Shown here piece after piece: positions 5,760 to 19,209 of a DNA stretch of 63,285 nt. Each line of letters begins with the position of its first letter. The stretch's first letter is position 1. Origin of the DNA: Altibacter sp. (GTDB lineage: Bacteria; Bacteroidota; Bacteroidia; Flavobacteriales; Flavobacteriaceae); assembly GCA_002696485.1 (NCBI GenBank), contig NZTP01000029.1, positions 1 to 63,285 of the forward strand, written 5' to 3'. The notes beneath the pieces were generated by a model, which had not been told where the DNA came from, did not search any database, and was given only the letters and a program-made list of their open reading frames with translations. Both the position numbers and the translations under genes were made by a program.

Positions 5760-6185
5760 TTACGTTTTTAATTGGGTTTGATAGGCAATGGCATCCAGTT
5801 TCATTTGCTTGATCATGGACACCAAACCATTGGCCCGGGTAGGGGATAGGTGTTCTTTTAAGCCTATTTCATCAATAAAGGAGGTGTCTGCTGCCAAAAT
5901 AGCTTCCGGGGACTGATTTGAGAAGACTCTTACCAAGATCGCCACGATCCCTTTGGTAATAATCGCATCGCTGTCGGCGGTAAAACGCACTTTACCATCC
6001 TTCAATTCTGAATGTAACCATACTTTGGATTGACAGCCTTTAATCAACTTATCTTCCGTCTTTAACGAGGGCTCGATAAGCGGTAAGGACTTGCCTAGTT
6101 CGATCATGTATTCATACTTTTGCATCCAGTCTTCGAACATGGCGAACTCATCGATCAATTCTTCCTGTATGGTCTTAATGGTCAT
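5760..6185 (-). CDS. sufE: Cysteine desulfuration protein SufE
   Basis: A 141-residue SufE. It accepts persulfide sulfur from SufS and passes it to the SufBCD scaffold. The acceptor cysteine is C51 in the motif IKGCQSKVWL, at the expected place for the family. Full length (about 140 residues). It lies 2 bases after the META lipoprotein gene and 3 bases before sufT, so it belongs to the same transcript as sufS although the lipoprotein gene separates the two partners. Confidence 0.95.
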   Translation of the reverse strand: MTIKTIQEELIDEFAMFEDWMQKYEYMIELGKSLPLIEPSLKTEDKLIKGCQSKVWLHSELKDGKVRFTADSDAIITKGIVAILVRVFSNQSPEAILAADTSFIDEIGLKEHLSPTRANGLVSMIKQMKLDAIAYQTQLKT

Positions 6186-6187
6186 AA

Positions 6188-6637
6188 CTAATTCGATTCT
6201 TTTGTGTCTTTTTGTGCGGTTAGAAGCACGCTGCGATCGTTCTTAGAATAAAGAGTAAGTATGTTGTTCTGAAGCCCATAGGAGCCTGTGTTTCTAAGCG
6301 CTGCCAATACGCCTTGCTCTATGTCCATGACAGGCTTTTCGCAAGCCATTTCGGTTACGGCAATGTCTTTAAATGAAAGCGCGTAGAGGTCCAAGGTGTA
6401 ATTTCCGAAGAACGTATTACAACCCGTATTTCCACGAACCGACTTGTCTAATGCGGCGAATGAAATAAATACATTTTTTTCTGAATTTCCGGGTACAGCA
6501 ATCCCTTCTACCGAAGTGATATTGTAAGCCCCTGAAAGTTGAACATTTCCTGCCACGTCGATTACTTTTTTTGTTTCGTCACAACCAAGGATCATGAAGG
6601 CGAGGACGAGTGTGAATGCTAATGATAGTGTTTTCAT
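6188..6637 (-). CDS. META domain lipoprotein inside the suf operon
   Basis: A 149-residue lipoprotein: a short hydrophobic signal ending in MILGC, with lipidated C19. The mature part is a META/HslJ-like domain: YNITSVEGI, the FISFAALDKSVRGNTGCNTF stretch and the second conserved cysteine in EMACEKP. META proteins include heat-inducible HslJ of E. coli, linked to novobiocin resistance; the molecular role is unclear. It sits 10 bases after sufS and 2 before sufE, so it must be co-transcribed with cytosolic Fe-S assembly genes although it is exported. Confidence 0.85.
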   Translation of the reverse strand: MKTLSLAFTLVLAFMILGCDETKKVIDVAGNVQLSGAYNITSVEGIAVPGNSEKNVFISFAALDKSVRGNTGCNTFFGNYTLDLYALSFKDIAVTEMACEKPVMDIEQGVLAALRNTGSYGLQNNILTLYSKNDRSVLLTAQKDTKESN

Positions 6638-6647
6638 TTTCTTGTTT

Positions 6648-7865
6648 TTAAGTGAGCATTTGTTTTGCTTTCGACACAGCTGCTACCAACCGGTCTACTT
6701 CTTCTTTTGTATTGTAAAATGCGAAAGATGCACGCACGGTACCGGGAATCTTGTAAAAATCCATAATAGGTTGTGCGCAGTGGTGTCCGGTTCTCACCGC
6801 AATCCCTAATTTATCAACAATGGTACCAATGTCGTATGGATGTATGCCCTCAATATTGAAGGAGATCACCGATGTCTTTTTTACACCTGTTCCATAGATA
6901 CGCAACCCTTCGATTTGCAGAAGCTGTTCGGTGGCATATTCCAGCAAACCTTTTTCATGCGCTTCGATGGCATCAAAACCAATATTGTTAAGATAATCAA
7001 TTGCCGCACCAAATGCAATACCTCCTGAAATATTGGGTGTGCCCGCTTCAAATTTATGAGGGAGATCGGCATAGGTGGTTTTTTCAAAAGAAACCTCTTT
7101 TATCATTTCTCCGCCGCCTTGATACGGAGGTAATTTCTTGAGCCATACTTCTTTTCCGTAGAGCATACCTACACCTGTAGGTCCACACATCTTGTGTGCA
7201 GAGGTTACATAGAAATCCACATCCAACGCTGCCAGATCGGGTTTAATGTGCGAGCATGCCTGTGCCCCGTCAATAAGCACAGCAGCCCCGACTTCGTGCG
7301 CTTTTTGAATGATGGTTTCAATAGGATTTATCGTGCCTAATGCATTTGAAATATGGTTGACAAATACGAGTTTTGTTTTTTCTGAAAGTAAGCTGATGTA
7401 TGCAGAAAGATCAAGGGTGCCATCTTCCTTCATGGGGATGACTTGTAAGGTGGCGCCGGTTCGTTCACACAGCATTTGCCATGGGACAATATTTGAATGG
7501 TGTTCTAAGGCTGAAACAATGATCTCATTTCCTTTTTTCAAGAATGACGAAAAGCCTGATGCTATCAAATTAATACCGTGAGTGGTTCCGGCGGTGAAGA
7601 TCACTTCGTGCGCATGTTGAATACCAAAATGCTGTTGAATCTTATTTCGAGCCGCTTCATAGACATCGGTCGCTTCTTGTGACAAACTGTGAACTCCGCG
7701 ATGGATATTGGCGTTGTAGTTTGAATAATAATCCACAATCGCATCTATAACCACCTGTGGTTTTTGAGAGGTGGCAGCATTGTCCAAATACACCAAGGGG
7801 TGCCCGTTCACTTGGCGCTGCAAGATGGGGAAATCGGCTCGTATTTTTTGAACATCCAACGCCAT
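6648..7865 (-). CDS. sufS: Cysteine desulfurase SufS
   Basis: A 405-residue group II cysteine desulfurase (PLP enzyme). It takes sulfur from L-cysteine to form a persulfide on its active cysteine, which SufE accepts. The PLP lysine is K225 in TSAHKMCGPTG; the persulfide cysteine is C363 in RTGHHCAQP. The short active-site loop is that of SufS and not IscS. Full length. It lies 16 bases after sufD. Confidence 0.96.
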   Translation of the reverse strand: MALDVQKIRADFPILQRQVNGHPLVYLDNAATSQKPQVVIDAIVDYYSNYNANIHRGVHSLSQEATDVYEAARNKIQQHFGIQHAHEVIFTAGTTHGINLIASGFSSFLKKGNEIIVSALEHHSNIVPWQMLCERTGATLQVIPMKEDGTLDLSAYISLLSEKTKLVFVNHISNALGTINPIETIIQKAHEVGAAVLIDGAQACSHIKPDLAALDVDFYVTSAHKMCGPTGVGMLYGKEVWLKKLPPYQGGGEMIKEVSFEKTTYADLPHKFEAGTPNISGGIAFGAAIDYLNNIGFDAIEAHEKGLLEYATEQLLQIEGLRIYGTGVKKTSVISFNIEGIHPYDIGTIVDKLGIAVRTGHHCAQPIMDFYKIPGTVRASFAFYNTKEEVDRLVAAVSKAKQMLT

Positions 7866-7881
7866 AATTGAGGTTTAAGGG

Positions 7882-9198
7882 TTAAATTTCGAAGCCCAAA
7901 CTTACCCCAATCTTATTTGCAATAAGCTTGTTGATACGTCGTTTTAGTTCCGGTATTTTTACACTTTCCAGTACATTGTTTGCAAAAGCATACATAAGAA
8001 GGGCACGCGCCTCTTTCTTTCCAATGCCGCGCGAACGCATATAGAACATGGCTTCTTCATCCAATTGTCCAATGGTGCACCCATGTGAACACTTTACATC
8101 ATCTGCAAAGATCTCTAATTGCGGTTTAGCATTGATCGTTGCCTTGTCATCGATTAATATGTTGTTGTTCTGTTGGAAAGCATCTGTCTTCTGTGCATCT
8201 TTTTCTACGATCACTCTTCCGTTGAAGACACCGGTAGAAGCATCACCGAAAATTCCTTTATAATCTTGATGGCTTTCACAATTTGGCGCGATATGGTGAA
8301 CCAAAGTGTTATGATCCACATGTTGTCTGTCTTCAAGGATGGTAATACCTTTTAACGTAGAATTACAGTGTTCTCCTTCTTGATAGAAATTGAGATTATT
8401 ACGTGTAAGCTTGCCACCAAAGGAAAAGGTATGCACATTACAATCGGAGTCCCGCTGCTGCGAAATATAGGTCGTATCAATAAGAGAAGCGGTCGGCACG
8501 TTATTTTGTATTTTATAATAGTCTACATGCGCACGTTTTTCGGCAAAAATTTCGGTCACACAGTTGGTAAGGACTTCATTTTCGGAAAGACTTTGGTGTC
8601 GTTCTATTATTTGAACATGCGCGTTTTCACCTACTACGATCAGATTTCGCGGCTGCAGGAACACTGCAGCTTCGTTTCCGGTTGAGAAATTGATGATCTC
8701 GATAGGCTTTTCTACTTCCTTGTGTTTCGGGATATGGATGTACGCACCTTCTTTTGCGAATGCGGTATTCAATGCCGTAAGGCTTTCTTGCTTGGCAGCT
8801 TTATTGAAGTATGCTTCAACTACGGGCTTGTATTTTGCTTTGTTCAAAGCCGAAGACATCAAACACACATCAAGCTTATCGTGTGTCGTTTCAGAAAGGA
8901 AAGAACTATATACACCATCAACGAACACGATCTTATAGGTATCGATATCGTGTAGAAAATATTTTTTAACCTCCTTGAATTCTATAGAACGCTCCAATTG
9001 CTTCGGAAATACACTGTAGTCAGTCTTCAGTAATGAATTAAGTGAAGTATACTTCCAGGCTTCTTCCTTTTTGGAAGGAAATCCTTTCAATTCGAATATT
9101 TTGATAGCCTCATTTCTAAGATCATGAATAGGGGAGTCTTGCTCCAAATTGTCTTCGAAAGCGAGGTAAGAGGATAGTAATTTATCTTTTAAACTCAT
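7882..9198 (-). CDS. sufD: Fe-S cluster assembly protein SufD
   Basis: A 438-residue SufD, paralogue of SufB and part of the SufBC2D scaffold on which nascent Fe-S clusters form. It shows the right-handed beta-helix core and the C-terminal CSHGCTIGQLDEEAMFYMRS segment characteristic of the SufB/SufD superfamily, including the conserved histidine and cysteine at the SufB-SufD interface. N-terminal helical region includes EAWKYTSL. It is 24 bases after sufC. Confidence 0.95.
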   Translation of the reverse strand: MSLKDKLLSSYLAFEDNLEQDSPIHDLRNEAIKIFELKGFPSKKEEAWKYTSLNSLLKTDYSVFPKQLERSIEFKEVKKYFLHDIDTYKIVFVDGVYSSFLSETTHDKLDVCLMSSALNKAKYKPVVEAYFNKAAKQESLTALNTAFAKEGAYIHIPKHKEVEKPIEIINFSTGNEAAVFLQPRNLIVVGENAHVQIIERHQSLSENEVLTNCVTEIFAEKRAHVDYYKIQNNVPTASLIDTTYISQQRDSDCNVHTFSFGGKLTRNNLNFYQEGEHCNSTLKGITILEDRQHVDHNTLVHHIAPNCESHQDYKGIFGDASTGVFNGRVIVEKDAQKTDAFQQNNNILIDDKATINAKPQLEIFADDVKCSHGCTIGQLDEEAMFYMRSRGIGKKEARALLMYAFANNVLESVKIPELKRRINKLIANKIGVSLGFEI

Positions 9199-9222
9199 AG
9201 TGTTTGCTGCTTCATGTTACGC

Positions 9223-9975
9223 TTATGCGTTCACTTCTTCTTTGATCCAGTCGTATCCTTTTTCTTCCAATTCGTAGGCCAATTCCTTCCCGCCGGATTT
9301 CACGATCTTACCATCCATGAGTACATGTACAAAATCCGGTACAATGTAATCCAACAAACGTTGGTAATGTGTGATCACTACCACTGCATTCTCTTTGCTC
9401 TTCAATTTGTTCACCCCGTTGGCTACCACCTTTAGGGCGTCAATATCCAAGCCGGAATCGGTCTCATCCAGGATCGCAAGTTTGGGCTCCATCATGGCCA
9501 GTTGAAAGATCTCGTTCCGTTTTTTTTCGCCTCCCGAGAATCCTTCATTGAGGGAGCGAGATAAGAACTTACGATCGATCTCCAGCATATCTGCCTTTTC
9601 TTTGATCATTTTAAGCATTTCGGCGGCAGGCATATCCTCTAAGCCTTTCGCCTTACGTGTTTCGTTGATCGCGGTCTTGATAAAATTGGTGACCGATACG
9701 CCCGGAATCTCTACGGGGTATTGAAATGACAAAAAGATTCCTTTGTGTGCGCGCTCTTCCGGATCCAATTCTGAAATATCTTCCCCGTCTAAGGTTAAGG
9801 CCCCTTGATGCATCTCGAATTCTTCCTTACCGGCGATCACAGAGGCCAAAGTACTCTTCCCGGAACCGTTGGGACCCATGATGGCATGAACCTCTCCGGC
9901 TTTAACTTCCAGGTTGATACCCTTCAATATATCCTTGCCTTCGACACCGGCGTGTAAATTGTTTATGTGTAACAT
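9223..9975 (-). CDS. sufC: Fe-S assembly ATPase SufC
   Basis: A 250-residue ABC-type ATPase of the SufBCD complex; it is soluble and works with SufB and SufD, not with a membrane transporter. Walker A is GPNGSGKS (34-41), the signature is FSGGE (146-150), and the Walker B aspartate and glutamate are D170-E171 in AILDETDSGLDID. Length is typical. In many genomes sufC follows sufB directly; here a lipoprotein gene (9978-10409) lies between them. Confidence 0.96.
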   Translation of the reverse strand: MLHINNLHAGVEGKDILKGINLEVKAGEVHAIMGPNGSGKSTLASVIAGKEEFEMHQGALTLDGEDISELDPEERAHKGIFLSFQYPVEIPGVSVTNFIKTAINETRKAKGLEDMPAAEMLKMIKEKADMLEIDRKFLSRSLNEGFSGGEKKRNEIFQLAMMEPKLAILDETDSGLDIDALKVVANGVNKLKSKENAVVVITHYQRLLDYIVPDFVHVLMDGKIVKSGGKELAYELEEKGYDWIKEEVNA

Positions 9976-9977
9976 AC

Positions 9978-10409
9978 TTAGTTTTTCTTTGCTTCTATTT
10001 TAACATCAGGAGTGGCAGGTGTATCACTAACACTAATAATTTCGGTTATGGTCAATACCTGCTCCCATCCTTCTTCATTCGCTTTTTTTCTTTCTACTGT
10101 CCCTTTTACAACAACAGGAACCATATCAAACTCATCTTTTTTTACAGGGGCAACCCTTTTGGACAATTCTAATGCCTTTTCATTTTGAGTAACACCAAAT
10201 ATGAAATTATTCCCCTTGAGTACAGCGCCATCTGCTAGATAGATGAATTCTCCTTTATAATGAATGTTGTAACGGTTTGCAGTTTCAGAATTGGTAGTGA
10301 TCTCTGAAGTTTCATTACTTTCTTCAGGCATTTTTTCTTCAGCATTCTTACACGAAATGAACGCCATTGATAAGGCGATGGCAAAAACGATTTTTTTCAT
10401 ACTTTTCAT
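9978..10409 (-). CDS. Small lipoprotein between sufB and sufC
   Basis: A 143-residue lipoprotein with signal peptide and lipobox AFISC (C20), then a low-complexity acidic Ser/Thr/Glu linker (20-45), then a compact beta-rich domain (about 48-130) with the phrases GEFIYLADGAVLKG and VVVKGTVERK. The strand pattern reminds me of the C-terminal OB-like half of NlpE-type copper-stress lipoproteins, but this is a weak resemblance and I do not assign the family. The gene lies 3 bases after sufB and 2 bases before sufC, so it is fully embedded in the operon. Function unknown. Confidence 0.7.
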   Translation of the reverse strand: MKSMKKIVFAIALSMAFISCKNAEEKMPEESNETSEITTNSETANRYNIHYKGEFIYLADGAVLKGNNFIFGVTQNEKALELSKRVAPVKKDEFDMVPVVVKGTVERKKANEEGWEQVLTITEIISVSDTPATPDVKIEAKKN

Positions 10410-10412
10410 AGA

Positions 10413-11861
10413 TTAACCAACAGAGCCTTCCAGGCTTATTTCTAATAACTTTTGTGCTTCCACGGCAAATTCCATAGGGAGCTTGTTCAATACTTCCTTG
10501 CTAAATCCATTTACAATAAGTGCAATGGCCTTTTCGGTATCGATCCCACGCTGATTGCAATAGAAGATCTGGTCTTCCCCGATCTTACTGGTGGTGGCTT
10601 CATGTTCTACTTGGGCGGTCTTATTCTTTGCTTCAATATATGGAAACGTATGTGCGCCACATTTGTTACCCATAAGCAACGAATCACACTGCGAGAAGTT
10701 TCGTGCATTGTCGGCATTGGGACTAATCTTCACTAGACCGCGATAGCTGTTTTGAGATCTTCCTGCCGAAATCCCCTTGGAGATGATCGTACTTTTAGTG
10801 TTCTTGCCTAAGTGGATCATTTTAGTGCCGGTATCGGCTTGCTGAAAATTGTTGGTTACAGCAATGGAATAGAATTCGCCAATAGAATTATCTCCTTTTA
10901 AGATACAGCTAGGGTATTTCCAGGTAATGGCACTTCCGGTTTCTACTTGAGTCCATGAAATCTTAGCATTGGTCTCACAGATTCCGCGTTTGGTCACGAA
11001 ATTGTACACCCCGCCTTTTCCTTCTTTATTTCCGGGAAACCAATTTTGAACGGTGGAGTATTTTATTTCAGCATCTTCCAAAGCAATGAGTTCTACAACG
11101 GCGGCGTGTAATTGATTCTCATCACGACTTGGAGCCGTACATCCTTCCAAATAACTCACATAACTGCCTTTATCTGCGATGACCAAGGTTCTTTCAAATT
11201 GGCCTGTACCGGCTTGATTGATCCTGAAATAGGTAGAAAGTTCCATGGGACATCTCACTCCCTTTGGAATATAACAGAAAGAACCATCACTAAATACAGC
11301 ACTGTTGAGAGCTGCGTAAAAGTTATCTCGCTGCGGAACAACGGTTCCTATGTATTTTTTCACCAATTCAGGGTGTTCTTTGATCGCTTCGGAAATAGAA
11401 CAAAAGATGATTCCTTTTTCTGCTAGTGTTTTTTTGAACGTAGTTGCCACCGAAACCGAATCCATTACGATGTCAACGGCAACTCCGGCTAATTTTTTTT
11501 GCTCTTCAAGTGAGATCCCCAGCTTTTTAAAGGTCTCTAGTAATTCGGGGTCTACCTCGTCTATGCTATCGTATTTAGGCTTTTTATTAGGAGCCGAATA
11601 GTATGATATATTCTGAAAATCCGGCTTTTCATAGGTTACATTTGCCCAATCCGGCTCAACCATCTCTTGCCAATAACGGAAAGATTCCAAACGCCATTGG
11701 GTCATCCATTCCGGCTCTTCCTTTTTCATTGAAATGGCACGAACGATTTCCTCGTTCAATCCCACAGGAAAAGTTTCAGATTCTATATCGGTATAAAATC
11801 CGTACTCGTATTCCTTGGTTTCGAGTTCTTTCTTTAAATCGTCTTCAGTAAACTTACCCAT
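10413..11861 (-). CDS. sufB: Fe-S cluster assembly protein SufB
   Basis: A 482-residue SufB, the main scaffold subunit where sulfur from SufE and iron are assembled with SufC and SufD. The family blocks are visible: the N-terminal [12 protein letters not shown], the [20 protein letters not shown] block, the core beta-helix segment with [20 protein letters not shown], and near the C terminus the conserved [20 protein letters not shown] stretch. Full length. It begins 19 bases after the sufA-like gene and is the second gene of the operon. Confidence 0.96.
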
Positions 11862-11880
11862 ATTCCTTTTTCAACACATT

Positions 11881-12210
11881 TTATAATGAGAAACTTTCTC
11901 CACAACCGCAAGTCCTGTTGGCATTGGGGTTGTTGAAAACAAATCCTTTTCCGTTGAGCCCGCCACTATATTCCAAAGTGGTTCCCACGAGATATAAAAA
12001 ACTTTTTTTATCGACCACGATCTTTACCGGAGTATCCTCGAAAAGCTTATCGGTATCACCTAGTGCTTTATCAAAAGTGAGTTCATACGACAAGCCGGAG
12101 CAACCACCGCTCTTAACGCCTACGCGTACGAAGTCGCTGCTTACGTCAAAGCCGTCTTCCCGCATTAATTGAGAGATCCTGGACTTGGCTGTTTCACTAA
12201 CCTTTATCAT
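11881..12210 (-). CDS. sufA: HesB/IscA-family Fe-S carrier (SufA-like)
   Basis: A 109-residue A-type carrier that accepts clusters from SufBCD and hands them to apo-proteins. The three conserved cysteines are all present: C37 in SGGCSGL and C101/C103 in TCGCGESF. It is the first gene of the suf operon, downstream of a TATATTTG -7 box. No SufR or IscR gene is seen next to it. The sufA symbol rests on family plus position. Confidence 0.92.
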   Translation of the reverse strand: MIKVSETAKSRISQLMREDGFDVSSDFVRVGVKSGGCSGLSYELTFDKALGDTDKLFEDTPVKIVVDKKSFLYLVGTTLEYSGGLNGKGFVFNNPNANRTCGCGESFSL

Positions 12211-12250: not shown

Positions 12251-12324
12251 CGGTAAATGCCCGTTTTAACCATAGTTCGACACAAAATATGACTTATACA
12301 ATTATAGATTAAGCTAATAATTAA

Positions 12325-12358
12325 CAAATCCTTTTTCAGCGTTTAGAAAAAGGATTTG
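12325..12358. terminator. Terminator-like hairpin after the diheme peroxidase gene
   Basis: CAAATCCTTTTTC (12325-12337) and GAAAAAGGATTTG (12346-12358) form a perfect 13-bp stem with an 8-base loop. It lies 28 bases downstream of the peroxidase stop, on the minus strand. The U-run is weak, being partly in the stem, so termination is likely but not certain. Confidence 0.6.
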
Positions 12359-12385
12359 CGGCTTCTGTTTAATTGTATTAATATT

Positions 12386-13453
12386 TTAGTCCGGAGCTCT
12401 AAAATTCGGATTGTTAATAAAGGAAGGATCTGATAGCGAAAGCAAAAAAGCTTTCAAATCGGCTTTGTCCTGCTCCGTAAGTTGTACACCACCTTCAGCA
12501 ACAGTTTTCATGAGTGGATCAATCGTTTCAGAATAGACCAATCCTTCGCTGTAGTGATCGATCACCTCATCTAGAGTTGCAAAACGCCCATCATGCATAT
12601 ACGGGGCGGTGTATGCTAAATTCCGAAGCGAAGGTGTTTTAAAAAGTCCAAACTCACGTGGATCCCCGGTAACATTTCCTCTGCCTTTATCGGTAATTGT
12701 GGCGTCAAGGCCATTATTATGAAAGATATTATCGGTCCATAACGGGTTGTTCGGGTTGCCGTGACAATGAAAACAATCCCCTCTGCTTTCGTCCATGAAC
12801 ACTTCCAGTCCGTTTGCTTCAGAAGGAGTTAATTCCAATTCTCCTAAAAGATATTTATCAAATCTTGAATTTGCAGAGATCAGTGTTCGCATGAACTGTG
12901 CTAATGCCTTTGTAGCCAGATCACTGTTGATGGCCCTTGTTCCGAAGGCAGCTTCAAACAATTCGGGATACTCGGCATCGGCCAGCAGACTGGCTGAAGC
13001 ATTTTCCCACGTATTGTGCATTTCAATTGGATTTGTAACAGGTTCTAATGCCTGCACTTCCAACGTAGCGGCTCTACCGTCCCAAAAAAATTCCTCATTA
13101 AAATTCCACGCCATATTGAATATGGGCATGGAATTGCGATTTCCTGCGATGCCATCGATCCCAATGCTGAATTGTCTTTCATCGGTAAAAGCATTTTGCG
13201 GATTATGGCATGAAGCACAAGCTTGAGTTCCATCTGCGGAAAGTATAGGATCAAAGAATAACTTTTTACCTAAAGCAATGCCTTCAACAGTTTGTGGATT
13301 GTCTGCCGGAACGACCGGTGGTATCAATTTATCCCGAAACAATTGCGGAATTTCCAACGGACTGGGTGTAGCCTCGTATTCCGGACCCGTATCGTCAGCC
13401 TCGGTACAAGCGAAACACAGTATGGAAATAAAGATAAGTGCTAAAAAGCGCAT
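12386..13453 (-). CDS. Diheme cytochrome-c peroxidase, MauG/MbnH-type lipoprotein
   Basis: A 355-residue periplasmic lipoprotein (lipobox LCFAC, C16) with two c-type heme motifs, CASCH (79-83) and CFHCH (227-231), in the bacterial CcpA/MauG arrangement. The family can reduce H2O2 (CcpA), oxidise tryptophan in a partner protein (MauG), or convert a partner tryptophan to kynurenine (MbnH). Here the gene begins 7 bases after an MbnP-family gene, which makes an MbnH-like role plausible. The conserved stretch NPIEMHNTW lies between the hemes. Peroxidase versus protein-modifying activity cannot be decided from sequence alone. Confidence 0.88.
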   Translation of the reverse strand: MRFLALIFISILCFACTEADDTGPEYEATPSPLEIPQLFRDKLIPPVVPADNPQTVEGIALGKKLFFDPILSADGTQACASCHNPQNAFTDERQFSIGIDGIAGNRNSMPIFNMAWNFNEEFFWDGRAATLEVQALEPVTNPIEMHNTWENASASLLADAEYPELFEAAFGTRAINSDLATKALAQFMRTLISANSRFDKYLLGELELTPSEANGLEVFMDESRGDCFHCHGNPNNPLWTDNIFHNNGLDATITDKGRGNVTGDPREFGLFKTPSLRNLAYTAPYMHDGRFATLDEVIDHYSEGLVYSETIDPLMKTVAEGGVQLTEQDKADLKAFLLSLSDPSFINNPNFRAPD

Positions 13454-13460
13454 TGTATAT

Positions 13461-14234
13461 TTAATTTTGGGTCACGGTACCTCTGCTAAAGACAGAAGTT
13501 CCGTTTTGGGACATCATGATCTGTGCCATGAAGTTAGGCATCAATACAGTGTGCAGATCGTTCAAGTTCCATTCATTTGGATTTTTGTACCATTCTGCCA
13601 CGTTCATTTCTACTTCGATCTCGGTATTGTTACCGATGGTTACTGTCCCCAGGTCTACCTCGAAAGAAGTGTCTTGAGTCGTTACCGGTGTCGTGCTCGT
13701 ATCGGCTGCACGGATGGTGTGATACGCATAGCCAATTTCAGCAGCGGTGTTGTCTATAAACTTTCCTTCCATTCGCATGTAGTGATAACCGCCGCCAAGC
13801 ATCATGGGAACATTCCATCCGCCATCTGCAGAGTTAAGATCTTGATAAACGCCGTCTATGTTGTCTTCGTCATCAAAACCAAACGTAAAAGTGACATTGT
13901 AATCTCCCGGAGGGATTTGGACATTCGGGGTAAACGTCAAATTAGACTGTTCTCGAACATTCACTAAATTGTAATCGCCTGCATCAAACGCAACGCCGCT
14001 GGAATTTGTAAAGGTCACATCTGAAATTAGGTAGACCAATTTTGAAAGACTTAGTTGTTCACCGTGCGCATTGGTATACTGGATTTGATCGAAGTCTGAG
14101 TTTGCGATCGCATCTCCATCCCAATTATGGGTAAATCTTAGGTCGACACTTACGGGTGTTGCGGTCGTGTCATCGTCGTTGTTGCATCCAAATGCTACAA
14201 TGGCGATCAAGGTCAAGAGGGCAATTTTTGTCAT
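13461..14234 (-). CDS. MbnP-family copper-binding-type lipoprotein
   Basis: A 257-residue lipoprotein (lipobox AFGC, C17) of the MbnP family: HNWDG early (H37, W38), LSLSKLVYLISDV, PPGDYNVTFTFGFDD and the stretch from G138 to M155 with W140, M144, M145, H151, M153 and M155. In methanotrophs MbnP binds copper after the diheme enzyme MbnH converts a tryptophan to kynurenine. The adjacent diheme peroxidase fits this pairing. Which tryptophan would be modified here is not known; W140, next to a His/Met-rich segment, is my guess. It lies 33 bases after the propeller lipoprotein gene. Confidence 0.82.
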   Translation of the reverse strand: MTKIALLTLIAIVAFGCNNDDDTTATPVSVDLRFTHNWDGDAIANSDFDQIQYTNAHGEQLSLSKLVYLISDVTFTNSSGVAFDAGDYNLVNVREQSNLTFTPNVQIPPGDYNVTFTFGFDDEDNIDGVYQDLNSADGGWNVPMMLGGGYHYMRMEGKFIDNTAAEIGYAYHTIRAADTSTTPVTTQDTSFEVDLGTVTIGNNTEIEVEMNVAEWYKNPNEWNLNDLHTVLMPNFMAQIMMSQNGTSVFSRGTVTQN

Positions 14235-14267: not shown

Positions 14268-15614
14268 TTATTTTATTTTATAAAGAAGCAGATCCTTTGT
14301 GCCTCGATTTTGAGGAATGTCACCATCACTACTCTCCGAATTTCCTATTACCACTATCTTACCGTCCGGTGTCTTCACCCCTTTGTTTGCAAAATCCAAT
14401 TTAGATCCGCCTACTGACATTTGAAATTCTATTCCTCCTTGTTCGTTGATCATATATACCCAAGCATCGTTCAATCCCTTATTGGATGTAAGATCTCCGT
14501 TTGCACTTCTGGAAGAGGCTGTTATAATATAGTTGCCATCGTTGGTCGACACAACACTTCTAGCCGATTCAAACTGATTTCCACCATAGGTATTTTGCCA
14601 AATAATGGCACCTGTATCGTTGAATTTTACAGCCCAAGCATCCGCATTCCCCAAAGGCGTTGTTATGTCGCCATCGGTGCTGCGTGTATCTCCTACCATA
14701 ATATAGTTGCCGTCGTTGGTGTGGCTCACCGCATATCCTATATCGATCTCACTGCCGCCAAACGACTTCGTCCAGAGCAAGTCTCCGGCATTGTTTAAAC
14801 GAACAGCCCAATAATCGTAAGAACCTTTGCTGTCTGTAATATCGAAGTCATCGCTTTCGGAAGCTCCTGTCATAAGAAAGCCACCATCTGCTGTTTCTAG
14901 TGCTCCATAGCTTCTGTCGTTATTGGTGCCTCCAAAGTAACGTCTCCAAACCGTATTGCCATTGGAGTCCAATTTAATACCCCAAAATTCACCTACACCG
15001 TGTTGTGGGTTTCTTCCGTCATCATCCCCTTGTCCGCCACTAGCCGTTACATCTAAAAATCCGGTAATAAAATAACCTCCATCACTTGTTTGGAAGGCAT
15101 CAAATGCTTGATCAACGCCCGAAAAGCCATAATATTTATCCCACATTTGGTTTCCTTCGCTATTGATCTTTACAATCCAGTAATCCGGAAATCCGGCATT
15201 GTCACCATCAATTGGGGTGCTATACCCACTTAACAGATACCCACCATCTGAAGTTTTGGTAATATTGGAGCCTTTGTCGGTGTCAACACCTCCATACGTT
15301 TTGCTCCAAAGGAGTTCTCCCGCAGGAGTTACTTTAATTACCCAAAAGTCCGCGTCAGTTCCGGTCTTGTCTGTAATGTCGCCATCGTTACTCTCGGTAT
15401 ACCCCAAGAGGACATAGTTGCCATCGTTGGCAATCACCATAGATGTAGCATCGTCTTCACCACTGCCGCCAAAGGTCTTGACATAATCAATAACCCCTTG
15501 AAATGCAGTGTCATCCGGTTCATCGACAGGATTGTCATCTTTATCACAAGCATAGAACACGCTCATCACAATAAGGACAAGGAAAATAGGTAGTAGGTTC
15601 TTTTTAAATAGCAT
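14268..15614 (-). CDS. Seven-repeat propeller-like lipoprotein
   Basis: A 448-residue lipoprotein (signal with VFYAC, C23; Asp/Pro-rich linker) made almost entirely of seven repeats of about 55-60 residues with the pattern YGG-x2-D...T-DGGY..G.S.S.DGDI...D.W..K....G...W. Seven such units strongly suggest a seven-bladed beta propeller. Repeat 3 carries a glycine- and aspartate-rich insertion. No catalytic motif is visible. It lies 13 bases after the choice-of-anchor-B gene and 33 before mbnP, so it is probably co-transcribed. A binding or adhesion role at the cell surface is inferred only. Confidence 0.75.
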   Translation of the reverse strand: MLFKKNLLPIFLVLIVMSVFYACDKDDNPVDEPDDTAFQGVIDYVKTFGGSGEDDATSMVIANDGNYVLLGYTESNDGDITDKTGTDADFWVIKVTPAGELLWSKTYGGVDTDKGSNITKTSDGGYLLSGYSTPIDGDNAGFPDYWIVKINSEGNQMWDKYYGFSGVDQAFDAFQTSDGGYFITGFLDVTASGGQGDDDGRNPQHGVGEFWGIKLDSNGNTVWRRYFGGTNNDRSYGALETADGGFLMTGASESDDFDITDSKGSYDYWAVRLNNAGDLLWTKSFGGSEIDIGYAVSHTNDGNYIMVGDTRSTDGDITTPLGNADAWAVKFNDTGAIIWQNTYGGNQFESARSVVSTNDGNYIITASSRSANGDLTSNKGLNDAWVYMINEQGGIEFQMSVGGSKLDFANKGVKTPDGKIVVIGNSESSDGDIPQNRGTKDLLLYKIK

Positions 15615-15627
15615 GATTTTGGGGGAT

Positions 15628-17040
15628 TTATTTCACAAGCAATCGTTTAGTAGTGGTACTATTGATTGTGATAAGGTATGTACCTGAAGGTAAAGATGAG
15701 ATGTCCAAACGCTCTGATACTGTATTATTTACTTCTTTATCAATAATTTGTTGCCCTAGTAGGTTATAAATTTCAATAGTATTGAGAGGAGTCTCATTGG
15801 TCGAAATAGTTAAAAAGGTATCTGCCGGGTTAGGAATTATGGTAAAATCGGCAACTGTTTGATCATTTACTCCTAAGAAATTAGGATCTCTCACTAAGAA
15901 GAATCCTCGGTCGATATCACTGATTACGATGTTCCCACTGGCAAAGAAGGGGTACACATTCCATGCACCGTCAAAACTTGCGCTATTTCCTTCAGGATAA
16001 CTATCGAAGAAACCTTCTTCTTCAATATTCTTATTGAGTATATCTGAAATATCGAACACACGCATTCCGGCTCTGTAGTTCGCCATATAATATTTATCAC
16101 CACGCACATATCCATTGTGGTCTATGGCAGGTGTGTTTCCGAAGTATTCAAAATGAAACTCCGGGTTATCCAAATCATTGAAATCGAAAATAATTGTTCG
16201 GGTTGAACCGCCAATGTTCAATTCATCCAATTCATCTCCAACAATGAAGAAACGCTGATCTTCGGTAAACCATCCTTGATGCGTATAAGCAACATTCGAA
16301 TAACTTATAGTTGCTATGCCTTGCGGGTTGTTTTTATCGGTAATGTCAACAATGGCAATCTCATCTTCATTACTTCCAATTAATATTTCGCGACCTGTAT
16401 AATCTGAATCCGGCCCATTGTAGGTAACCACCTGTGCATCATGGCTATATCCATTTGTACCGTATCCTCCGGCAGCTACAGGGTTTGTGGGGTTCTGAAT
16501 ATTCACAAAGTGTGGCCCTCCGTTAAATGTAGAGGTTCCTACACCATATGCATAACCGCTTTCTTCATTAATTACAATATTGTGCGCACTACCAAAACCA
16601 TTGTAGTGAGCATCTTCCGTAAAGAAAACGGGAGGGTTCGTAACGGTGCGAAGTCTGGTAAGATCGAAGACCTGCATTCCGTGACCACCTGCTTCACTCA
16701 CGACAAAAGCATGATTGGCGTACACTTTTACATCGCGCCATGTACTGTTGCCGGTATGTGTTGGTAATTTACCAAGGTAAATGGGGTTAATAGGGTCAGA
16801 TATATCAATAAATGCAGTTCCATTGTTTAACCCTACCAAAGCGTATTCCTTCCCAGTATCCGGGTCTGTCCAGCCCCAAGAGTCGTTACCTGCACTCGCA
16901 TTCATTTGAGCGAGAGAGATAGTGGATTGCAGATCATAACCATCACATGGAAATCCTCCGGCAAAACCACCACTGCAAGGGGTTTGTCCAAATGTTAATG
17001 CTGTAGTAAAGGAAATTAAAAGTAGTATTATTTTTTTCAT
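15628..17040 (-). CDS. Choice-of-anchor B family (LVIVD-like) secreted protein, T9SS sorting
   Basis: A 470-residue protein with signal peptide, LVIVD-like propeller units (FIDISDPINPIYLGKLPTH, IVDITDKNNPQGIATISYSN, MRVFDISDIL) and a C-terminal type A T9SS sorting domain (FTIIPNPADTFL, GQQIIDKEV, LPSGTYLITI, ending KRLLVK). It matches the choice-of-anchor B family. A longer in-frame start at 17076 overlaps a -7-like box, so the ATG at 17040 is preferred. It is a close paralogue of the next gene upstream. Exported through the outer membrane; function unknown. Confidence 0.82.
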   Translation of the reverse strand: MKKIILLLISFTTALTFGQTPCSGGFAGGFPCDGYDLQSTISLAQMNASAGNDSWGWTDPDTGKEYALVGLNNGTAFIDISDPINPIYLGKLPTHTGNSTWRDVKVYANHAFVVSEAGGHGMQVFDLTRLRTVTNPPVFFTEDAHYNGFGSAHNIVINEESGYAYGVGTSTFNGGPHFVNIQNPTNPVAAGGYGTNGYSHDAQVVTYNGPDSDYTGREILIGSNEDEIAIVDITDKNNPQGIATISYSNVAYTHQGWFTEDQRFFIVGDELDELNIGGSTRTIIFDFNDLDNPEFHFEYFGNTPAIDHNGYVRGDKYYMANYRAGMRVFDISDILNKNIEEEGFFDSYPEGNSASFDGAWNVYPFFASGNIVISDIDRGFFLVRDPNFLGVNDQTVADFTIIPNPADTFLTISTNETPLNTIEIYNLLGQQIIDKEVNNTVSERLDISSLPSGTYLITINSTTTKRLLVK

Positions 17041-17065
17041 GATGTATTTGAGAGTTAATTTTGAG

Positions 17066-17073
17066 CGAATATA
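17066..17073 (-). promoter_or_regulatory. Possible -7 box for the choice-of-anchor B/MbnPH cluster
   Basis: The minus strand reads TATATTCG, one mismatch from TAnnTTTG, 25 bases before the ATG at 17040. The gap to the upstream paralogue is 115 bases, so a separate promoter here is reasonable. Weak evidence. Confidence 0.35.
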
Positions 17074-17155
17074 CATTATTTTGAACGTAATCTCTTATAA
17101 GATAGTGTATTTCACTACATTTTGTCGTTAAAATATTTATAATTTACAATGTTAA

Positions 17156-19075
17156 TTACTTTTTTATGAGTCGCTTGGTCACCAAGTCGTTTAACCTCAT
17201 AAAATACAAGCCTTCTGAAAAAGTATTTAAAGAGATCGTTTTACGCAACGTATCTAAATTATTTTGCGAATACACTTGCTTTCCTGTAATATCAAAAATT
17301 CTAATAGCGTTTATTGGAATTTCCTGCGACTGTACTGTGATTGTTTCTACTGCGGGATTCGGAAAGATCGTAATGCCATTTTCAAACGAATAGTCGTCCA
17401 CGTTCAAAATTTCCTGAACCGTAAGTACAAAAGAGCAGGAGTTGCTATTGCCTTCGGAATCGATGGTCTCAAAATTGATGGTATAGGTTCCTTCAGTTAC
17501 TTGGGTTCCGGCTGAAGGGGTCTGAACAATACCTGTGTTTCCGTCGCAATTGTCAGTTGCCGTAATGTCTCCGTTTTGTACATAATCCGGCACAGTGTAA
17601 TAATCAACTCCCGGATCATACCCTACTGTAGTATTTGGGGGACAGTCCAGCAGGGGTTCAAGATCATCTACTACAGTGATGGTCGCGGTACAGCTGTCGG
17701 TATTTCCTGAAGGGTCTGTAACCGTAAGAGTTACTACATTGGGTCCTTTTTGTGAACAATCGAAGCTGTTTTCACTTAACGCTAAAGTGTAAAAACCACT
17801 ATCATCAAAAGAACCTCCATCTACAAGAACCGGGTTGACCACAGCTTCTCCATTCATATCAAGCGGTATGGTGATGTTCTGGCAAACGGCCACGGGATTG
17901 GTGGTATCGGGAGCCGAAGATTTTACCAAAAAAAATCCACCGCTTCGGTCACAGATCATGATATTCCCGCTGTTAAAGAATGGATACACATTCCATGCAC
18001 CGCTAAAATTAGCGTTATTGTTGGAAGGGTAGGTGTCAAAGAATCCAATTTCATTCATGGTGTTCGAACCTATGCCGCTAATGTCTATGGCTCGCATTCC
18101 GGCCGAATAATTCGCAAGAAAATAAGTGTTTCCTACAACATAACCATTATGGTCGATTGCCGAAGTTGGCCCAAAATATTCAAAGTCCAAGACCGGATTG
18201 TCCAGATCCAGAAGATCGAAAATAATGGTTCGGGTATTAAACCCTACATTGGATTCGTCAAACTCATCCCCTAATAATAAATAACGCTGATCTTCAGTAA
18301 ACCAGGCTTGGTGGGTATAACCTACATTACTATACGAAATAGTTGCAACGCTTTGCGGGTTCGATTTGTCAGTAACATCCACAATGGAAACTACAGCGTC
18401 TGAACCACTACTGCTTATCAATATTTCTCGCCCGGAATATGTTGCATCCGGTCCCGAATAGGTAACTACTTGCGCATCGTGTGTATATCCGTCTCCACTA
18501 AACCCTCCGGCATCTATTGGATTTAAAGGGTTTTGAATATTTACAAAATGGGAGCCTACGTAGGTGTCTGCTCCTACACCATAAGCGTAGCCCGTTTCTT
18601 CATTGATAACTATATTGTGGGCGCTTCCAAAACCGTTAAAATGGGCATCAATTGTAAACGTAACGGGTGGATTGCTTACATTTCGTAATCGTGTAAGGTC
18701 GAAGATCTGTATTCCGTGACCCGGGGCTTCACTTACTATAAAAGCGTAATTGTTGTAGACTTTAATGTCCCTCCACTGGCTGGTGCTGGTTTGGGTAGGT
18801 AATTTGCCTAAATAGACAGGAGCATTCGGGTCCGATATATCAATAAAAGCAGTTCCATCTTCAAGTCCCACAAGAGCATACTCATCATTATTGGTTGGGT
18901 CGATCCAACCCCAAGAATCATTCGCTCCTGTAGTGTTCATCGTGGATAAAGGAATGTGTGATTGTAGGTCATACCCATTGCAAGGATAAGCGCCCGCCAT
19001 CCCACCGATACAGGGCGTTTGAGTTAATGCTATTGTACTGCTAAGAACAAAAGACAAGCGTAAAAGTTGTTTCAT
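17156..19075 (-). CDS. Choice-of-anchor B protein with HYR-like domains, T9SS sorting
   Basis: A 639-residue paralogue of the gene at 15628-17040. The signal peptide and LVIVD-like propeller align with it nearly block for block (residues of about 20-400). It then adds two HYR/Ig-like modules (VAVCQNITIPLDMNGEAVV...; LLDCPPNTTVGYDPG...) and a type A T9SS sorting domain (ITIFPNPAVETI, FDITGKQVYSQ, FSEGLYFMRL, KRLIKK). A start at 19132 exists, but the one at 19075 gives a normal signal peptide (MKQLLRLSFVLSSTIALTQ). Surface or extracellular; function unknown. Confidence 0.82.
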   Translation of the reverse strand: MKQLLRLSFVLSSTIALTQTPCIGGMAGAYPCNGYDLQSHIPLSTMNTTGANDSWGWIDPTNNDEYALVGLEDGTAFIDISDPNAPVYLGKLPTQTSTSQWRDIKVYNNYAFIVSEAPGHGIQIFDLTRLRNVSNPPVTFTIDAHFNGFGSAHNIVINEETGYAYGVGADTYVGSHFVNIQNPLNPIDAGGFSGDGYTHDAQVVTYSGPDATYSGREILISSSGSDAVVSIVDVTDKSNPQSVATISYSNVGYTHQAWFTEDQRYLLLGDEFDESNVGFNTRTIIFDLLDLDNPVLDFEYFGPTSAIDHNGYVVGNTYFLANYSAGMRAIDISGIGSNTMNEIGFFDTYPSNNNANFSGAWNVYPFFNSGNIMICDRSGGFFLVKSSAPDTTNPVAVCQNITIPLDMNGEAVVNPVLVDGGSFDDSGFYTLALSENSFDCSQKGPNVVTLTVTDPSGNTDSCTATITVVDDLEPLLDCPPNTTVGYDPGVDYYTVPDYVQNGDITATDNCDGNTGIVQTPSAGTQVTEGTYTINFETIDSEGNSNSCSFVLTVQEILNVDDYSFENGITIFPNPAVETITVQSQEIPINAIRIFDITGKQVYSQNNLDTLRKTISLNTFSEGLYFMRLNDLVTKRLIKK

Positions 19076-19209
19076 TTTTTTGAATAAGATTCGTAAAACT
19101 ACTAATTTATATAGTTGCAAATTGAATAGCAATGTTAAAAAACAGTACCCTATTATTTTACTAGGTCAATGAATTCAAGCTTTTTTATCGTTTTTTGAAG
19201 GTGAAACTG

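Follow-up and report, generated by a model that had tools for sequence, protein, structure and literature searches.

To our knowledge, copper sites that involve a kynurenine are found in very few proteins, all of them from methanotrophs. One of the described systems to which the present locus can be compared is the MbnP/MbnH pair of Methylosinus trichosporium, represented in the PDB by 7l6g and 6e1c, the latter of which we take to be its MbnH. In the MopE/SACCP and CorA/CorB systems of methanotrophs, as described in PMC3912023 and PMC3621798, a cell-surface copper protein carrying a kynurenine beside its site adjoins a gene for a di-haem peroxidase-like protein; the copper site given for CorA comprises two histidines and a Kyn62-x-H64 motif (Kyn62, H64 and H114; PMC3912023). 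The methanethiol oxidase operon (mtoX-SCO1-mauG), in the account of PMC5739008, likewise combines a propeller copper protein with a MauG-like gene. That MbnP/MbnH pairs occur far beyond the methanobactin producers was already stated in 2013 (PMC3621798), and we therefore reject the novelty of a methanobactin-free pair as such: the methanobactin independence put forward in the preliminary description of our locus is no novelty, and that finding is mostly known. The parts of specialist interest would be a broken W-x-W motif, a fixed four-gene setting and a histidine difference in the neighbouring SBBP lipoprotein.

Set against the Methylosinus system, the pair described here differs by a W-N-V in place of the W-x-W and by the subfamily-specific H151, W222 and M232 of its MbnP. 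Methanobactin genes are missing, the two genes stand in a setting of choice-of-anchor B (CAB) and SBBP genes, and each of the two products is a lipoprotein whose cysteine is followed by acidic residues. The canonical flavobacterial pairs (group B below) are the same module of two genes, found in the same bacteria, including a clade of 7 genomes in the CAB-SBBP setting, and differ from the present subfamily in that the W-x-W is kept in 30/30 and that neither CAB nor SBBP lies near the pair in 13 of the 20 loci examined with flanks, 7 of these 20 having been picked for a nearby CAB.

Gene map and identity of the pair

The locus lies on the minus strand, a point missing from the preliminary description, of a 63,285-nucleotide stretch of Altibacter sp. 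DNA (contig NZTP01000029.1), here called the window. The MbnP-like lipoprotein (13461..14234, 257 aa) is followed, after a gap of 7 bases (13454-13460), by the MbnH-like di-haem lipoprotein (12386..13453, 355 aa), whose haem motifs occupy residues 79-83 and 227-231. Upstream of the pair and on the same strand lie the SBBP propeller-repeat lipoprotein (14268..15614), in which the lipobox is followed by CDKDDN and which the delta-60 and SBBP-lipoprotein profiles match below their cut-offs, and two CAB propellers with type IX sorting tails: copy 1 (15628..17076; seven-bladed; TIGR04312, 581 bits) and copy 2 (17156..19132; with an HYR domain; TIGR04312, 533 bits), the open reading frame of the latter being listed from a TTG, with a likelier ATG start 19 codons inward, near 19075. 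The reading frames, the gap, the CASCH and CFHCH motifs and the numbering of W140, M144, M145, H151, M153 and M155 in the preliminary description are all confirmed by our map. In the Altibacter genome, 95.8% complete, the cluster accounts for the single MbnP, the single CCP_MauG gene and both CAB genes, and there is no match to PF05114 (the MbnB family), which bears out the reported absence of methanobactin genes.

Downstream, in the same direction, lie suf iron-sulphur cluster genes (SufA-like and SufB through SufE; 5760-12210), among which are also found a small META-domain lipoprotein and another lipoprotein of no Pfam family. A 14-pair hairpin between MbnH and suf (12324..12359, minus strand; z -4.43) is a possible transcript end; it was folded after being spotted, and the region has 4 terminator-like sites against a mean of 6.0 in shuffles.

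The MbnP-like protein scores 101.3 bits against PF20243, whose cut-off is 27. Its structure prediction, a check suggested in the preliminary description, was made by AlphaFold2 from an alignment of 111 relatives and reaches a mean pLDDT of 93.9; the fold matches Methylosinus MbnP, the six chains of 7l6g being the only PDB matches of the model at E <= 0.001. CorA and MopE are not among these fold matches, nor do the searches with the window proteins give any sequence match to MopE/SACCP or CorA/CorB, which may nonetheless be kin. At the level of sequence, phmmer against PDB sequences gives 0 matches, a profile of the 111 MbnPs gives one, confined to the signal peptide region, and a six-row profile finds 7l6g at E 0.014. 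No match at E 0.1 was obtained to NCBIfam TIGR04052 (MbnP_like_WxW, cut-off 140 bits), a cut-off below which 4 canonical or C-type relatives also fall with 27-56 bits, and a second A-type MbnP has no match to it at E 0.001. The plasmid collection that was searched gave no match.

The closest PDB match of the MbnH-like protein is 6e1c, 'Di-heme enzyme', at E 5e-57. It scores 201 bits against CCP_MauG and 256 bits against NCBIfam TIGR04039, its best match there, below the cut-off of 362.85, which is also missed by five of five other flavobacterial MbnHs (213-259 bits). The two haem motifs, together with W124, E144 and Y301, are each conserved in 107-109 of 109 MbnHs, and we take these CxxCH, Trp, Glu and Tyr positions to have the roles of the corresponding residues in the MauG group. 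Y301 aligns with a tyrosine in 6e1c and with a methionine in the peroxidase 1iqc. A tyrosine as distal ligand marks the MauG-type enzymes capable of a high-valent state, while methionine is the haem ligand in peroxidases. An enzyme that guards the cell surface against hydrogen peroxide, with MbnP as its electron-donor or docking partner, would agree with the CCP_MauG superfamily and with the many peroxidases among the 30 PDB matches; we find this very improbable in view of the tyrosine, not methionine, at 301, of best profile and PDB matches that are of MbnH type, and of an MbnP adjacent in 72 of 73 loci.

The pair is not a chance match (Pfam MbnP, E 7.9e-29; CCP_MauG, E 1.5e-59), MbnH being the next gene in 72 of the 73 subfamily loci. 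The claim that this is an MbnP/MbnH-type pair holds in the wide sense by profile, fold and gene order, and membership of the group in that sense is almost certain.

The residues that follow the lipid cysteine are NNDDD in MbnP, DKDDN in SBBP and TEADD in MbnH. The published signal for surface export is C-X-K-(D/E)2-X, which the window SBBP fits (PMC5080379). Two or more acidic residues within six positions are present in 68/72 MbnPs of subfamily A, 59/75 SBBPs and 91/106 MbnHs, counting these proteins only, and from these residues the cassette lipoproteins are likely to be exposed at the surface.

Operon order and distribution

The MbnP comparison rests on 111 of the 134 matches from a family-level search of 249 genomes, namely subfamily A (72, the window included), the canonical group B (30, the top scorers), a mixed group C (8) and one orphan, L047; a repeat of the window (L001) was dropped. 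Two of the group C MbnPs, L048 and L055, have tails rich in His and Asp that are metal-binding in look. Subfamily A was defined by an MbnP score above 260 and an SBBP in the locus, hence the fair figure for the gene order is 72/73, L047 being the exception. A second set, the best 80 of 467 stretches that encode an MbnP relative, consists of named loci and overlaps the first by shared species.

The order CAB(1-5)-SBBP-MbnP-MbnH is found in 72 of 73 subfamily A loci, and overlaps or gaps of a few bases are common. Among the best 80 of 467 named loci, of which 14 are incomplete, SBBP lies within 200 bases upstream of MbnP in 79 and MbnH within 200 bases downstream of it in 78; 77 contain a CAB and 75 have suf genes downstream. 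The suf genes also adjoin many loci without MbnP and MbnH. CAB is multiplied in tandem ahead of SBBP in several loci (L054, L058, L073, L078), with five copies in a row in G090 and G198. Nearly all of the best 80 of 467 are titled Flavobacteriaceae or genera of this family, one being titled Rokubacteria, and the nearest named relative among them is Altibacter lentus, with 95% in MbnP. MbnP was found in 119 of the 249 Flavobacteriaceae genomes searched and in 180 of 296 in Flavobacteriales. Of the 249, 87 have both MbnP and CAB, 32 MbnP only, 52 CAB only and 78 neither, a correlation with a Fisher p of 1.4e-7 when genomes are treated as independent and 4 CAB genomes below the family cut-off are counted. 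In the literature searched, no paper links choice-of-anchor B proteins to MbnP or MbnH.

The trees of MbnP and MbnH, in which 36-37 of the 72 A rows were used, contain the same clades A and ii. Clade ii consists of canonical MbnP/MbnH in the same CAB-SBBP setting and comprises 7 genomes, which appear as 11 rows in the SBBP comparison since four loci are present twice. One origin of the CAB-linked clades A and ii gives p-AU values of 0.29 and 0.56, and the two may indeed be of one origin.

Conserved residues of MbnP, SBBP and CAB

The W-x-W is complete in 38/38 MbnPs of groups B and C and in 12 of 72 in subfamily A. At its second place subfamily A has Val in 60 and Trp in 12 of 72, and the window reads W140-N-V142 (W140, 13815..13817, minus strand). 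The only histidine invariant in 111/111 MbnPs is H172 (13719..13721, minus strand). Three further residues are invariant in the 72 members of subfamily A: H151 (13782..13784), in this subfamily only, W222 (13569..13571), which is not in the group B consensus, and M232 (13539..13541), all on the minus strand. H172, W222 and M232, like the wider operon, are absent from the site and from the pair as first described.

The preliminary description proposed that MbnH turns W140 into a kynurenine and so creates a copper site with the neighbouring methionines and histidine. W140 does align with the first Trp of the W-x-W and is conserved in 65/72 MbnPs of subfamily A and in 76 of the best 80 of 467. 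Among the ligands named, H151 is conserved (72/72; 79 of the best 80 of 467), as is M153 (62/72; 80/80), and M145 is intermediate (51/72; 53/80), but M144 and M155 are not conserved, Met being found there in 20 and 18 of the same 80 loci. The Kyn-x-His copper site of CorA (PMC3912023) speaks for this proposal; against it, the second Trp of the W-x-W is gone, and position 140 is Phe in 7 of 72 relatives, a state that requires at least two changes on the MbnP tree and that stands in all 7 loci beside an MbnH with all nine residues checked (both CxxCH, W124, E144 and Y301). We judge the proposal, as a whole, unlikely. Because Phe occurs in 7/72, each time beside an intact MbnH, W140 is a fair candidate for the modified residue, judged by the alignment, and not a general one; that it is the residue modified is possible, with a chance a little below even.

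The orphan MbnP of L047 (genome G245) lies beside suf in a stretch where MbnH, SBBP and CAB were not found. Its H151 is replaced by Tyr and its M232 by Thr, and W140, H172 and W222 are kept. Likewise, H151 is missing from one locus of the best 80 of 467, Thr stands at 232 in one, and in one MbnP is alone; L257 among them, whose contig equals that of L047 in length, is presumably the same locus as L047. The lone MbnP looks like a remnant, and this single case points to H151 and M232 as putative working residues.

In the window SBBP, residues 143, 167 and 169 are P, V and Q, and 205 is His. For comparison, 40 loci without an adjacent pair were picked from the listed CAB matches (L115-L134, L282-L301) and yielded 37 SBBPs, none being seen in L124, L134 and L296. 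All 37 have His at 143, 167, 169 and 205 (window numbering), and this four-His set occurs in none of the 79 genomes whose locus contains the pair (72 A, 7 ii), where His is absent from 167 and 169 throughout, is found at 143 in a minority and is retained at 205 in every row. Because 4 of the 37 SBBPs come from genomes that hold a canonical pair elsewhere, it is the locus and not the genome that counts. The free SBBP tree gives two changes of the His set, one of them dependent on the single row L293. When five long rows are removed, a tree that groups all pair-less loci fits better (p-AU 0.925), which weakens the idea of repeated independent switching with MbnP and MbnH. On a SufB tree the label changes 10 times, at least 5 of these changes being forced by starred branches; this may reflect movement of the whole cassette as one unit or a poor resolution of SufB. 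Among the loci examined the association holds without exception, and the data allow it to be one event, unreplicated.

The model of CAB copy 1 (pLDDT 92.1) is a propeller in which seven inner strands are counted. As placed by strand borders, H165 (16582-16584), H212 (16441-16443), H266 (16279-16281) and H320 (16117-16119, all minus strand) lie near the inner-strand starts of four successive blades, with W67, W113 and W372 similarly placed in the remaining three. These residues are kept in 117/117 CABs of loci with the pair and in 20/20 of loci without it; Trp69 and Trp269 are also invariant. Among 23 CABs of other groups of Bacteroidota, taken from 20 loci (L262-L281, hand-picked from 131 genomes with a match; L263 and L279 incomplete) the four His are kept in 23/23, Trp113 in 22/23 and the other Trp in 23/23, with no MbnP, MbnH or SBBP detected nearby by flavobacterial profiles, which can miss remote kin. 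Because the four His are kept in CABs with neither MbnP nor MbnH nearby, the alignments suggest a metal site that would be proper to CAB and independent of MbnH. While phmmer against PDB sequences gives 0 matches for the CAB propeller, the top Foldseek match of the model is the Sphingobium phosphotriesterase 5hrm (E 1.1e-10, 17% identity over 333 aligned residues), which we take to be a metal enzyme; Z values of 30.5-31.7 are shared by many unrelated propellers, and kinship is not established.

These residues also bear on what MbnH acts upon. It could modify or mature the secreted CAB rather than MbnP, which would then only deliver metal, as the fixed operon order, the invariant Trp67, Trp69, Trp113, Trp269 and Trp372 and the four His of CAB, and the methanethiol oxidase precedent (PMC5739008) would allow. 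The mtoX operon, as described there, is without MbnP; SCO1 is not shared, and CAB is another propeller family. Since the CAB residues are equally conserved in the 20 CABs without the pair and in the distant ones, the case for CAB as the substrate of MbnH is weakened, and we consider it improbable. Action of MbnH on MbnP itself is probable.

A proposed surface metal-handling operon

The reading we favour is that of a variant MbnP/MbnH pair ending a cell-surface metal-handling operon of Flavobacteriaceae. The MbnH-like enzyme would use peroxide to reach a high-valent haem pair and would oxidise a tryptophan of its lipoprotein partner MbnP. This oxidation would complete a metal site that uses H172 together with the subfamily-specific H151 and M232. 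The metal would most likely be copper, a choice that we make with modest confidence by analogy with the MbnP family and the CorA site. On the outer side of the outer membrane, MbnP would hold this metal or pass it on; the SBBP with the four-His set would have the same metal job in relatives whose locus lacks the pair, and MbnP would replace it. For the CAB propellers, secreted by the type IX route, the role would be that of metal user or of catalytic component, the hand-over of metal to CAB being doubtful.

This reading is supported by the profile and fold matches, the MbnP-MbnH order in 72/73 loci and the matching clades A and ii, by the residues kept in MbnH, the invariance of H151, H172 and M232 in 72 MbnPs and the L047 exception, and by the acidic residues after the lipobox and the four-His difference of SBBP (37/37 against 0/79). 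It is weakened by the lack of a TIGR04052 match, by an MbnH score below the TIGR04039 cut-off, by an SBBP difference that may be one event, by an H151Y/M232T orphan that is one case, and by CABs that keep their His and Trp without any MbnP or MbnH. Moreover, as the W-x-W is broken in 60 of 72 and W140 lost in 7, the formation of kynurenine may not be kept. Taken as a whole, we hold the proposal tentatively, at somewhat less than an even chance. It is also conceivable, if unlikely, that this MbnP has been re-purposed: its W-x-W would have decayed while MbnH was kept, a new site of H151, H172, M232 and W222 would give rise to a new protein-derived metal cofactor at the surface, and, in working with two propeller proteins, the pair would have relieved one of them, SBBP, of the four-His site that it keeps where the locus lacks the pair.

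In conclusion, our observations place a pair related to MbnP/MbnH, whose MbnP has relatives encoded in 467 stretches, in an operon of fixed order whose secreted propellers have no known function. If the proposed reading is true, it would provide an initial approach to the choice-of-anchor B family, and it would mean that the site of MbnP can change while its enzyme stays. The natural variants, namely the MbnPs with F140, the orphan MbnP and the SBBPs that bear the His set, would then show which residues matter.
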